In this document: in pieces, positions 21,365 through 59,452 of the stretch
Layout: the number at the start of each line of letters is the position of its first letter
How positions within the stretch are numbered: the first letter of the stretch is position 1
Assembly: GCF_029633825.1 (NCBI RefSeq)
Contig: NZ_CP090640.1
Location: 248,001 to 312,000, forward strand
DNA length: 64,000 nt
Source of the DNA: Burkholderia contaminans
GTDB lineage: Bacteria > Pseudomonadota > Gammaproteobacteria > Burkholderiales > Burkholderiaceae
Reading direction: 5' to 3'
The notes under the pieces: generated by a model
What the model saw: only the letters and a program-made list of their open reading frames with translations
The model's database searches: none
What the model was told of the DNA's origin: nothing
Position numbers and translations under genes: made by a program

Positions 21365-22396
21365 ATGGCATTCAACGTCACTCTCAAGCAAAGCGGCCGG
21401 CAATTCCAGGTCGAGTCGGATGAAACCGTGCTGGCGGCTGCGCTGCGCCAGAACGTCCATCTGCCGTACGGCTGCAAGAACGGCGCGTGCGGCTCCTGCA
21501 AGGGCCAGATCGTGTCGGGCCAGATCGAACAGGGCCCGCACGCCGCGTCGGCGCTGTCCAACGACGAACGCACGCGCGGCCTCGCGCTGCTGTGCTGCTC
21601 GAAGGCGCAGTGCGATCTCGAGATCGACGTGCGTGAAATCGCCGGCGTCGACGGCGTGCAGGTCAAGAAGCTGCCGTGCCGGATCGCCGCGCTCGAGCGC
21701 AAGGCCGACGACGTGATGGTCGTGAAGCTGCAACTGCCCGCCAATGAACGCCTGCAGTATCTCGCGGGCCAGTACGTCGAGTTCATCCTGAAGGACGGCT
21801 CGCGCCGCAGCTACTCGATGGCGAACGCGCCGCACGAGGAAGGCCCGATCGAGCTGCACATCCGCCACATGCCGGGCGGCAAGTTCACCGACCACGTGTT
21901 CGGCGCGATGAAGGAGCGCGACATCCTGCGCTTCGAAGGCCCGCTCGGCACGTTCTTCCTGCGCGAGGATTCCGACAAGCCGATCGTGCTGCTCGCATCG
22001 GGCACGGGCTTCGCGCCGATCAAGGCGATCATCGAGCACGTGAAGCACACGGGCATCACGCGCCCGATGACGCTCTACTGGGGTGCGCGCCGCAAGAAGG
22101 ACATCTACCTCGGCGAGCTCGCCGAGCAGTGGGCACGCGAGATCCCGAACTTCAAGTACGTGCCGGTGCTGTCCGAGCCGGACGCCGGCGATCAATGGAC
22201 GGGCCGCACCGGCTTCGTCCATCGCGCGGTGATCGAGGACCTGCCCGATCTGTCGGGCCACCAGGTGTACGCGTGCGGCGCGCCGGTGATGGTCGAATCC
22301 GCGCAGCGCGACTTCACGCAGCACCACGCGCTGCCGGCCGACGAGTTCTATGCGGACTCGTTCACGAGCGCCGCCGATCTCGCGCATCCGGTCTGA
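21365..22396 (+). CDS. 2Fe-2S ferredoxin/FAD/NAD(P)H oxidoreductase (CDP-6-deoxy-glucoseen reductase-like)
   Basis: Electron-transfer reductase of 343 residues. It has an N-terminal plant-type [2Fe-2S] ferredoxin domain with Cys37, Cys42, Cys45 and Cys77 (or 78). The FAD-binding region includes RRSYSMANAP, and the NAD(P)H region includes VLLASGTGFAPIKAI followed by a C-terminal CGAPVMV. The architecture matches the AscD/benzoate-dioxygenase-reductase group, and Burkholderia copies are usually annotated as CDP-6-deoxy-delta-3,4-glucoseen reductase. No matching dehydratase or sugar genes are nearby, so the physiological partner is unknown. Confidence 0.88.
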   Translation: MAFNVTLKQSGRQFQVESDETVLAAALRQNVHLPYGCKNGACGSCKGQIVSGQIEQGPHAASALSNDERTRGLALLCCSKAQCDLEIDVREIAGVDGVQVKKLPCRIAALERKADDVMVVKLQLPANERLQYLAGQYVEFILKDGSRRSYSMANAPHEEGPIELHIRHMPGGKFTDHVFGAMKERDILRFEGPLGTFFLREDSDKPIVLLASGTGFAPIKAIIEHVKHTGITRPMTLYWGARRKKDIYLGELAEQWAREIPNFKYVPVLSEPDAGDQWTGRTGFVHRAVIEDLPDLSGHQVYACGAPVMVESAQRDFTQHHALPADEFYADSFTSAADLAHPV

Positions 22397-22457
22397 GGCC
22401 CGCGCACCCGCGTACGGCACTGCGCGCCGCGATGTCACATCCGTGGCATCGCGCCGG

Positions 22458-22487
22458 TTTACAGTGAGGCGCGGGATGCCTTATGCT
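22458..22487 (+). promoter_or_regulatory. Putative argD leader promoter
   Basis: TTTACA (22458-22463) and TATGCT (22482-22487) are separated by 18 bp and resemble sigma-70 -35 and -10 boxes. The predicted start of transcription, near 22494, falls at the ATG of the short leader ORF. No promoter can fit between the downstream terminator and the argD ribosome-binding site, so argD transcription must begin at or before this point. Confidence 0.5.
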
Positions 22488-22494
22488 TGCGCAC

Positions 22495-22578
22495 ATGAAC
22501 CGCTTCCTGTCCGCCCTTCGACGTCGCCGCTCGCCGCTCCGCCCGGATGCCGCCGGCTCGTCACGGACTCGCGCGTAA
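22495..22578 (+). CDS. Putative Arg-rich leader peptide of argD (27 aa)
   Basis: A 27-codon frame starting MNRFLSALRRRRSPL and ending SRTRA. Eight of 27 residues are Arg, including four consecutive codons (CGA CGT CGC CGC, 22519-22530). The stop codon TAA (22576-22578) lies inside the 5' arm of a perfect 8-bp hairpin. There is no good ribosome-binding site, but the predicted transcription start is within a few bases of the ATG, so translation could be leaderless. Followed by an intrinsic terminator and argD, a gene of arginine synthesis. Best read as an attenuation leader; unproven. Confidence 0.55.
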   Translation: MNRFLSALRRRRSPLRPDAAGSSRTRA

Positions 22579-22604
22579 CCCCCACACCGCTTCACCGGTT
22601 ACGC
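22573..22604 (+). promoter_or_regulatory. Hairpin overlapping the leader-peptide stop codon
   Basis: GCGTAACC (22573-22580) pairs perfectly with GGTTACGC (22597-22604) across a 16-nt loop. The leader stop codon is within the 5' arm, so a ribosome at the end of the leader ORF would block the hairpin. Confidence 0.5.
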
Positions 22605-22623
22605 ACAAGCTGTTCGACCCACC

Positions 22624-22648
22624 AGCCACGGCCTTCCGTGGCTTTTTT
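22624..22648 (+). terminator. Intrinsic terminator/attenuator upstream of argD
   Basis: AGCCACGG (22624-22631) and CCGTGGCT (22636-22643) form an 8-bp stem with a CCTT loop, followed by six T residues (22643-22648). It is 45 bp past the leader ORF stop and 41 bp before argD. It could alternatively end transcripts of the upstream reductase gene. Confidence 0.75.
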
Positions 22649-22689
22649 ATTGCCTGTTTCCCTTTCAACGCCCGCTGGAGTCTGCTGCC

Positions 22690-23874
22690 ATGCCCCTGAA
22701 CGATTATCCGATCGACTCGCTGATGTACATCACGAACCGCCCCGACATCGTGTTTACGCACGGCAAGGGTTCGTGGCTCTACGATCACACGGGCAAGCGC
22801 TATCTGGACTTCATCCAGGGCTGGGCCGTCAACAGCCTCGGCCATTGCAACGAAGGCATCGTCGACGCGCTGAAGACGCAGGCAGAAAAACTGCTGAACC
22901 CGTCGCCCGCGTTCTACAACGAGCCGATGGCGAAGCTCGCGGGCCTGCTCACGCAGCACAGCGTGTTCGACAAGGTGTTCTTCACGAACAGCGGCGCGGA
23001 AGCGAACGAAGGCGCGATCAAGCTCGCGCGCAAGTGGGGTCGCAAGTTCAAGAACGGCGCGTACGAGATCATCACGTTCGACCACAGCTTCCATGGCCGC
23101 ACGCTCGCGACGATGTCGGCCAGCGGCAAGCCGGGCTGGGACACGATCTACGCACCGCAGGTGCCGGGCTTCCCGAAGGCCGAGCTGAACGACATCAACT
23201 CGGTCGAGAAGCTGATCACCGACAAGACCGTCGCGGTGATGCTCGAGCCGATCCAGGGCGAAGGCGGCGTGATTCCGGCCACGCGCGAATTCATGCAGGC
23301 GCTGCGCGCGCTGACGAAGCAGCACAACCTGATGCTGATCGTCGACGAGGTGCAAAGCGGCTGCGGCCGCGCGGGCACGCTGTTCGCGTACGAGCTGTCC
23401 GGCATCGAGCCGGACGTCATGACGCTCGCGAAAGGGATCGGCGGCGGCGCCCCGCTCGGCGCGCTGCTGTCGAAAGCCGAGTTCGCGGTGTTCGAGGCCG
23501 GCGACCAGGGCGGCACGTACAACGGCAACCCGCTGATGACGGCGGTCGGCTATTCGGTGATCTCGCAGCTCGTCGCACCGGGCTTCCTCGAAGGTGTGCG
23601 GGCGCGCAGCGAATACCTGAAGCGCAAGCTGCTCGAGCTGTCGGAAGAGCGCGGCTTCGAAGGCGAACGGGGCGAAGGCCTGCTGCGCGCGCTGCTGCTC
23701 GGCAAGGACATCGGCCCGCAGATCGTCGAGAAGGCGCGCGACATGCAGCCTGACGGCCTGCTGCTGAACGCCGCGCGGCCGAACCTGCTGCGCTTCATGC
23801 CCGCACTGAACGTGACGACCGAGGAAATCGACCAGATGATGGCGATGCTGCGGTCGGTGCTCGACACGCTCTAA
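22690..23874 (+). CDS. argD: Acetylornithine aminotransferase family protein ArgD
   Basis: Class III PLP-dependent aminotransferase of 394 residues. The cofactor lysine is Lys248 (TLAKGIGGGAPLGA), and the PLP-binding Asp is in VDEVQSGCGRAG. The NSGAEANEGAIKLARK and FHGRTLATMSASGK segments are typical of acetylornithine/ornithine aminotransferases. The usual annotation is acetylornithine transaminase (arginine synthesis); a catabolic succinylornithine or ornithine activity cannot be excluded by sequence alone. A CTGGAG ribosome-binding site precedes the ATG. An Arg-rich leader ORF and terminator upstream suggest arginine-dependent attenuation. A GNAT gene follows 13 bp downstream. Confidence 0.88.
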   Translation: MPLNDYPIDSLMYITNRPDIVFTHGKGSWLYDHTGKRYLDFIQGWAVNSLGHCNEGIVDALKTQAEKLLNPSPAFYNEPMAKLAGLLTQHSVFDKVFFTNSGAEANEGAIKLARKWGRKFKNGAYEIITFDHSFHGRTLATMSASGKPGWDTIYAPQVPGFPKAELNDINSVEKLITDKTVAVMLEPIQGEGGVIPATREFMQALRALTKQHNLMLIVDEVQSGCGRAGTLFAYELSGIEPDVMTLAKGIGGGAPLGALLSKAEFAVFEAGDQGGTYNGNPLMTAVGYSVISQLVAPGFLEGVRARSEYLKRKLLELSEERGFEGERGEGLLRALLLGKDIGPQIVEKARDMQPDGLLLNAARPNLLRFMPALNVTTEEIDQMMAMLRSVLDTL

Positions 23875-56752: not shown

Positions 56753-56977
56753 ATGAAGGGATTTCGCTTTGGTTCAGCGCTCGGGTCGTTCTACATCCTG
56801 CCGGGTAACGGCGGCTGGGAAGCGACGTTCGGCAACGCCCTGCTCGGCGCATTCTCGTGCCCCGAAGTGGCAGCCGACCACATCTCCCGCGGCGACTGCG
56901 AACAACTGTCCGAACTGGACACGGCAACGCTCGAAGTGCCGCACGAAATCGCCGAATGGGAAATCGTTCACGTCTGA
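56753..56977 (+). CDS. Small hypothetical protein (74 aa)
   Basis: A short gene with a GGGAG ribosome-binding site. The product begins MKGFRFGSALGSFYILPGNG, contains one Cys at about residue 36, another at 49, and an acidic C-terminal half. No signal peptide or membrane segment. I do not recognise a family. It has its own bidirectional terminator and no operon partner. The AT-rich patch upstream could hold its promoter. Function unknown. Confidence 0.65.
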   Translation: MKGFRFGSALGSFYILPGNGGWEATFGNALLGAFSCPEVAADHISRGDCEQLSELDTATLEVPHEIAEWEIVHV

Positions 56978-56994
56978 ATGACAAGCCGGCAACG

Positions 56995-57024
56995 AAAAAC
57001 GCCCCGGGCGACCGGGGCGTTTTT
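56995..57024. terminator. Bidirectional intrinsic terminator
   Basis: AAAAACGCCCCGG (56995-57007) and CCGGGGCGTTTTT (57012-57024), a 13-bp stem with a GCGA-type loop. Serves the small gene and the convergent isocitrate dehydrogenase. Confidence 0.88.
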
Positions 57025-57100
57025 CTTTTGTGACCAGCGTCAGGCGGCAATGCCCGCCGCACCGGCACATGCATCGGCCCGCGCGATCGCGCGGCCTGCG

Positions 57101-59452
<2,352 letters not shown>

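Follow-up and report, generated by a model that had tools for sequence, protein, structure and literature searches.

A conserved arginine-rich leader with competing RNA folds suggests ribosome-mediated attenuation of argD in Burkholderia and related bacteria

The window analyzed here, a 64,000-nucleotide (nt) stretch of Burkholderia contaminans DNA (NZ_CP090640.1, positions 248,001-312,000; coordinates below are those of the window), carries the gene for acetylornithine transaminase, argD (22690-23874; NF002985 equivalog, 811.5 bits), preceded on the same forward strand by a compact leader whose likely role as an arginine-sensing transcription attenuator is the subject of this work. The leader begins with a promoter (-35 box TTTACA, 22458-22463; -10 box TATGCT, 22482-22487; 18-nt spacer; 9/12 consensus matches), the sole sigma-70-like site within 21500-23500, where shuffles predict 0.2; in the same scan no such promoter was found after the terminator. 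An ATG follows the -10 box 7 nt further on and opens an upstream open reading frame (uORF) of 27 codons (22495-22578; ATG at 22495, TAA at 22576-22578), whose peptide MNRFLSALRRRRSPLRPDAAGSSRTRA is specified with 8 Arg codons, four of them consecutive (CGA CGT CGC CGC, 22519-22530). Downstream lie an intrinsic terminator with arms AGCCACGG (22624-22631) and CCGTGGCT (22636-22643) and a T6 run (22643-22648), then the likely Shine-Dalgarno sequence of argD, GGAGT (22677-22681). The terminator is unremarkable by itself (1 found in the 21500-23500 scan versus 1.3 expected by chance).

The original prediction, made from the sequence alone, had singled out this promoter, uORF, Arg run and terminator, together with a hairpin over the uORF stop codon, as a possible arginine attenuator, and all five are present. 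The hairpin (GCGTAACC, 22573-22580, with GGTTACGC, 22597-22604) differs in sequence among genera; because it is not conserved we set it aside as a core element, and it is probably a spacer hairpin. What had gone unnoticed is that the leader belongs to a catalogued RNA family: a covariance-model match to Rfam RF02884 (BcKCsr7) spans 22481-22648 with 162.6 bits (gathering cut-off 59). Across the window, gathering scores are attained by RF02884 and a single transfer RNA (tRNA) alone, with no Rfam match to T-box or riboswitch families. In B. cenocepacia J2315, an RNA called RIT34, nc5U30, Bc_KC_sr7 or IG1_2967543 (2967641-2967787) is described as expressed and conserved (PMC10987360). It is listed there as decreased in Caenorhabditis elegans infection and increased under organic peroxide, in a set of conditions that did not include arginine (Table 2, PMC10987360). 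The listed 147-nt transcript of this orthologue agrees with the leader in length only.

The leader is strongly conserved. Of 428 argD relatives found, the best 80, from Burkholderia and Paraburkholderia, were kept, and the uORF was sought in them as ATGAAY plus a peptide pattern. In each of these best 80 loci, argD is preceded by an Arg-run uORF (RRRR in 78, RRR in 2) in which the first Arg codon of the run is CGA. RF02884 scores above cut-off in 65/65 Burkholderia genomes and in 82/200 genomes of the family, and reaches E ≤ 0.001 in 121/200 (9/25 genera). Conservation of the uORF and Arg run in 80/80 loci and of RF02884 in 65/65 Burkholderia genomes removes chance as an explanation of the leader. 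We fetched 40 RF02884 matches in the family, 32 of which contain argD; the 8 with no argD in the stretch all score below the family cut-off. Among the 32, an Arg-run uORF persists in 30 (in 4 of them as RR-x-x-R), another leader no longer has a start codon and the last is masked there; the automatic uORF pattern overlooked 8 of these leaders, 6 of which were read from the sequence by eye. The leader peptide of Paraburkholderia xenovorans LB400 (L090), for example, is MNRIQSELRRRRSPLP. Across the family the uORF stretch ahead of the Arg run measures 6, 7, 8 or 9 codons, so that its length changes by whole codons, a property partly built in by a parser that required an in-frame ATG. Conservation of the Arg-rich frame and its run, which the original prediction had proposed as a check, thus extends over the 80 loci and into diverged genera.

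Some leaders in the family appear to be decaying. In a 4.2-Mb genome (L128) the start codon is gone, and in genomes of 3.6 and 3.8 Mb (L126, L127) Arg codons within the run have changed to Cys; the terminator is retained in all three. In genus g12 of the same family, with genomes of 1.7-2.1 Mb, argD is 70-72% identical and has neither the leader terminator nor an Arg-rich uORF in front of it (L182 and L184).

The position of the promoter points to an unusual start. Among 66 leaders, 54 have a promoter with at least 8/12 consensus matches and a -10 box ending 6-8 nt before the ATG (shifted-position control: mean 0.5, maximum 3/66), and an SD-like (Shine-Dalgarno-like) motif precedes the uORF ATG in only 2/66. 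With the promoter directly before the ATG and SD-like motifs rare, the transcript is expected to begin with the ATG or right beside it, as had been predicted for the window, and this suggests that the uORF lies on a leaderless message in most leaders examined. The 5' boundary of the RF02884 match, which lies 14 nt before the ATG and takes in the -10 box, is probably not the transcript start.

We collected 112 leaders, of which 43 remained after removal of near-copies and 41 could be parsed as the family set for folding. With RNAfold, three states recur in many of these 41 leaders, depending on whether the RNA is free, lies beyond a stalled ribosome, or is complete. In the free RNA, the stretch of Arg codons (region 1, 22509-22529, which includes the sensor codons) is predicted to pair with a strand downstream (CGGCTCGTCACGGAC, 22554-22568); the window's pairs are 22509-22513/22564-22568, 22520-22523/22559-22562 and 22526-22529/22554-22557 (the 1:2 pairing). 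In the RNA downstream of a ribosome placed on the Arg run, GCCGCCGGCT (region 2, 22549-22558), which nearly repeats the terminator 3' arm, pairs with AGCCACGGC (region 3, 22624-22632), which is also the terminator 5' arm. In the full-length RNA, region 3 pairs with region 4 (terminator 3' arm and U-tract, 22636-22648) and the terminator wins the fold at equilibrium. Eight pairs make up the 2:3 antiterminator, GCCG/CGGC and GGCT/AGCC flanking a small internal loop. The original prediction had noted a weak pairing of GGCTCGT with ACCAGCC and reported no strong antiterminator; the weak pairing turns out to be part of this longer one, the antiterminator that the prediction had missed. In other families region 2 tracks the terminator 3' arm, with TGCGGCC against GGCCGCA in family f24 and GCGCG-GC against GC-CGCGC in family f3.

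We examined co-variation by swapping segments between 11 classes of leaders (10 families, one of them, f5, in two classes) and comparing own with swapped partners by permutation. Own partners beat swapped ones for the 2:3 pairing (p=0.005 intramolecular, p=0.004 duplex) and for the 1:2 pairing (p=0.0002 and p=0.0006, respectively). Within the family, the 2:3 pairing is stronger than with a shuffled region 2 (mean z -1.7, p≤0.05 in 19/41 leaders). Pair counts were made on 46 distinct family sequences in an alignment that was fitted to the structure; in these, standard pairs amount to 89.9% versus 87.3% in shuffles, cells changed on both sides number 22 versus 8.2, and the covariation score is 0.110 versus 0.074, with 0/500 shuffles as high for either of the last two. 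Slid controls give 32-45% standard pairs and 1-11 cells changed on both sides. In the alignment itself, 100% of cells in the terminator helix are paired. On a plain MAFFT alignment, RNAalifold recovers the terminator and four other pairs only, with little co-variation. Of the refuting conditions named in the original prediction, those open to examination in silico come out mostly in its favour: the terminator, like the uORF and its Arg run, is conserved, and the competing pairings are seen repeatedly and co-vary between families, the 1:2 pairing not exceeding shuffles within the family. A plain terminator in the 5' untranslated region (UTR), giving constant partial read-through with a peptide and pairings of no regulatory role, would fit the full-length equilibrium fold that the terminator wins, and GC-rich leaders do pair by chance; the Arg run, the promoter-ATG geometry and the co-variation between the 11 classes make this reading highly improbable.

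The effect of a ribosome was simulated by masking the RNA to 14 nt past the A-site codon's first base; pairing of the terminator 5' arm with region 2 was then computed for RNA still lacking the 3' arm, which amounts to an equilibrium sketch and not to kinetics. In the window, the predicted 2:3 pairing is 0.00 without a ribosome and 0.73-0.94 when one sits on the four Arg codons; at codons 13-15 it is 0.98, 0.98 and 0.83, and at codon 16 it is 0.23, region 2 being covered from codon 17. Averaged over the family, pairing of the arm with anything upstream is 0.32 without a ribosome, 0.65-0.86 with the A-site at any of the six codons counted from the run start, and 0.17-0.30 at +8 to +10. The modelled ribosome response is centred on the Arg run, yet not confined to it. 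The uORF stop codons lie 7-22 codons after the first Arg codon across the family (19 in the close relatives of the window, 7-8 in many others), and by this spacing a finishing ribosome would reach region 2, though only partly where the stop is at +7 or +8.

Within the run, CGA stands first in 64/66 leaders, a count partly built into the collection, as the 80/80 count above is not, and is rare elsewhere (30/1459 Arg codons in the 80 argD orthologues; 2/107 in seven ORFs of the window treated as genes). Its retention may reflect slow decoding at the sensor position or pairing in the 1:2 stem, the two being inseparable here. Polybasic peptides slow ribosomes. Slow CGA, a polybasic nascent chain or some other stress could make the leader a sensor of slow translation in general rather than of arginine, and the expression changes listed for the RNA, under peroxide and in infection with arginine not among the conditions (PMC10987360), are in line with this. 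The downstream gene is nonetheless argD, an argument that owes something to selection, since argD was the means by which leaders were collected or confirmed. Moreover, third-position variation dominates within the run (0.55 bits versus 0.21 and 0.11), and such synonymous changes (CGC/CGT/CGA) fit the sensing of tRNA; the constancy of CGA may instead be due to the 1:2 pairing. We consider a general sensor of slow translation unlikely and prefer arginine as the signal.

Leaders of this kind occur beyond the family. A model built from the family leaders gave four matches in other families with argD adjoining, examples of their uORFs being MKHLPARLTSLRRRHSPAPGEPAGYVRGLDSA and MIANATFLRRRSQPEKGLLLRA. 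We then assembled 54 argD upstream stretches from 53/63 genomes of the order, leaving out 8 genomes whose leaders had already been collected and 2 of genus g12; one stretch (L200) was already known as a model match. An intrinsic terminator is present in 21/54. In these 21 stretches uORFs were scored if they began with ATG or GTG 70-165 nt before the terminator: 11 have at least 3 consecutive Arg codons, where shuffles predict about 0.7; another 9 carry RR and 1 has single Arg codons only. Stems of the terminators differ among families (GCCACGG, GCCGCGC, GGCCGCA, GCCACAGG, GGGCCACGG and GGGCCGCGG). In an earlier scan, some of 11 upstream regions without a terminator showed RRR, from the GC-rich background.

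Family f5 has a longer leader (L198, L199, L223, L225-L228), with 141-149 nt from ATG to terminator and scattered Arg codons (e.g., SRRTNAAARARSGRGA) instead of a run, and may sense arginine differently. An order-wide model (R1) was rejected, as it mostly matches something else: 83/300 genomes match, and argD is present in only 9/30 kept loci (the other 21 were not inspected individually). Weak leader-model matches at 56926-57131 of the window, on both strands with 22-29 bits, were likewise rejected as a leader; the site is a GC-rich terminator-like hairpin (CGCCCCGGGCGACCGGGGCG and a T run).

Attenuators of the trp type (trp, his, leu, ilv, thr, phe) combine a uORF in which codons for the end product stand in a row, alternative pairings, an intrinsic terminator and a biosynthetic gene. 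The argD leader shares these sequence-level features, having a uORF between promoter and gene, an Arg run, an intrinsic terminator, a 2:3 antiterminator mutually exclusive with the terminator, and argD downstream; its predicted 1:2 pairing can be counted among them with reserve. It differs from them in its Arg codons and regulated gene, in its apparently leaderless uORF, and in a stop codon 19 or 7-8 codons after the first Arg codon. As judged from anatomy, conservation, competing folds and between-family co-variation, all observed in silico, the leader is very probably a ribosome-mediated transcription attenuator through which the arginine supply governs argD, as the original prediction had proposed. 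The transcript would begin with the uORF ATG or no more than a few bases from it, and a ribosome would load on the leaderless message. With sufficient Arg-tRNA it would pass the Arg run and reach or cover region 2, region 3 would pair with region 4, and RNA polymerase would terminate, releasing an RNA of about 150 nt (BcKCsr7/nc5U30). When Arg-tRNA is scarce, the ribosome would stall on CGA-CGT-CGC-CGC and cover region 1, so that region 2 pairs with region 3, the terminator is blocked and argD is transcribed. If no ribosome loads, region 2 would be taken up by the Arg codons (1:2), leaving the terminator to form.

Several results weigh against this interpretation. In the simulation, the antiterminator of the window is high before the run is reached (0.85 and 0.67 on codons 7-8) and is still 0.83 at codon 15; the family mean is already 0.55-0.65 with the A-site 1-4 codons ahead of the run and rises again to 0.30-0.44 at +11 to +15; and classes f24 and f20 show upstream pairing of the arm with no ribosome present (0.73 and 0.68). 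Three leaders (L125, L156 and L167) fit the three-state picture less well. The five codons before the Arg run show no third-position excess (1.43/1.11/1.10 bits). Outside the family the leader is patchy, no terminator being detected by the finder used in 33/54 argD upstream stretches. Finally, among the arginine genes of the window's genome scanned for leaders (argF, argG, carA and argC; argA/J, argB, argE and argH were outside the scan), argF, argG and carA have neither a terminator nor an Arg-run uORF near the gene.

The co-variation has limits of the same bearing. The window's own class, f1, shows no preference for its own partner in the intramolecular comparison (2:3, -5.8 versus -5.8; 1:2, -9.7 versus -11.7), and by the same measure own 2:3 partners are not preferred in f15, f21, f35 and f39, nor own 1:2 partners in f24. 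With other window definitions and 19 groups, p is 0.00005 or 0.017 for 2:3, and so depends on the definition, and 0.003 for 1:2. Within the family the 1:2 pairing, predicted in many leaders and co-varying between classes, is not stronger than with a dinucleotide-shuffled region 2 (RNAduplex; mean z 0.15, p≤0.05 in 2/41). Within-family swaps are near even, the own partner being better in 22/41 for both 1:2 and 2:3 as duplexes and, intramolecularly, in 26/41 (1:2), 30/41 (outer part of 1:2) and 27/41 (2:3). In the pair counts two measures show no excess: pairs altered on both strands (4 versus 3.6 in shuffles; 286/500) and further pair types (11 versus 12.7; 481/500).

Membership of RF02884 raises another explanation, namely that the RNA is primarily a trans-acting small RNA (sRNA) released from the argD 5' UTR, with an incidental uORF. 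It is catalogued as an sRNA in Rfam, expression changes are listed for it (PMC10987360), and the near-invariant nucleotides of the Arg run could be a seed. What recurs across families despite overall sequence change, though, is the promoter-adjacent ATG, the Arg run, the terminator and the co-varying pairings; besides, a trans role could sit on top of attenuation, as with rnTrpL of Sinorhizobium meliloti. We regard a primarily trans-acting RNA as having a low probability, and continue with the argD attenuator as the preferred reading. The rnTrpL RNA has its 5' end at the ATG of trpL, and this attenuator RNA, once terminated, functions as an sRNA (PMC7298713). The argD leader resembles it in an RNA that would start at the uORF ATG, a start that we infer from promoter position; the S. 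meliloti system differs in its Trp codons, its alphaproteobacterial host and its reported trans function (PMC7298713).

Other systems share parts of the proposed mechanism. In Salmonella, consecutive Arg codons of the speF uORF orf34 sense arginine through ribosome pausing, but the gene encodes ornithine decarboxylase, control is by Rho-dependent termination and RNase G decay with no intrinsic terminator, and the uORF has a Shine-Dalgarno sequence (PMC6386406). In Staphylococcus aureus, Arg codons of the rbfL leader peptide sense arginine limitation, but control is translational, covers the ribosome-binding site, has the opposite sign and uses rare AGA/AGG codons (PMC13009471). Neither speF nor rbfL is an attenuator of an arginine-biosynthesis gene. 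The cysS uORFC-8-2 motif of Rhodobacterales was also proposed from comparative genomics as a ribosome-mediated attenuator with tandem sensor codons, in this case cysteine codons before an aminoacyl-tRNA synthetase gene (PMC8632094). The paper on BcKCsr7/nc5U30/RIT34, the same RNA family as the argD leader and of similar length, treats it as an sRNA; its main text contains neither "argD" nor "leader peptide", and the available text gives it no function, cis or other, and no uORF or link to arginine (PMC10987360).

We found no earlier report of a bacterial attenuator that uses an arginine leader peptide and precedes an arginine-biosynthesis gene, in a search with most subscription journals outside its reach; the original prediction had likewise known of no established example in beta-proteobacteria. 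None is described in the available text of PMC8632094, PMC10175445, PMC6321483, PMC12123629, PMC4122931 or PMC6123439, nor in that of PMC2965389 (no occurrence of "argD" or "arginine") or PMC4603805 (none of "argD" or "attenuat-"). The available text of PMC4997734 mentions a carA leader peptide of Pseudomonas aeruginosa, with no arginine attenuator before a biosynthesis gene found there. The mechanism is known, and its amino-acid specificity is apparently new.

Two further arginine loci of the genome deserve mention. The upstream region of argC has a terminator and no Arg-run uORF before it; this terminator (L246, G000:C1:1328600-1329200, reverse strand; AAGACGGCC/GGCCGTCTT and a T run) lies about 0.1 kb before the apparent argC-like start and, with no Arg-run uORF ahead of it, may simply end the gene upstream. 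A second argD-like aminotransferase, with 40% identity, is encoded in the same genome at G000:C1:2302043-2303158.

An AraC-type ArgR occurs in Pseudomonas. We looked for the hexameric ArgR, an AraC-type ArgR not being searched for, and PF02863 was absent from all 60 family genomes examined; PF01316 was above cut-off in 0/150 genomes of the order, with one weak match below cut-off. In control genomes each of the two domains was above cut-off in 8/14. It is conceivable, if rather doubtful, that Burkholderiales in which no ArgR was found use the argD attenuator as a main arginine control, and that the RNA released under plentiful arginine, possibly with its polyarginine peptide, acts in trans on other genes to report arginine status cell-wide.

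In summary, the argD leader would add an arginine member to the leader-peptide attenuators and would give a cis function to the Rfam sRNA family RF02884. It offers a leader peptide that is apparently leaderless in most leaders examined, with a rare CGA fixed at the first sensor position, and would supply a part-answer to how arginine synthesis is controlled in bacteria where ArgR was not found.

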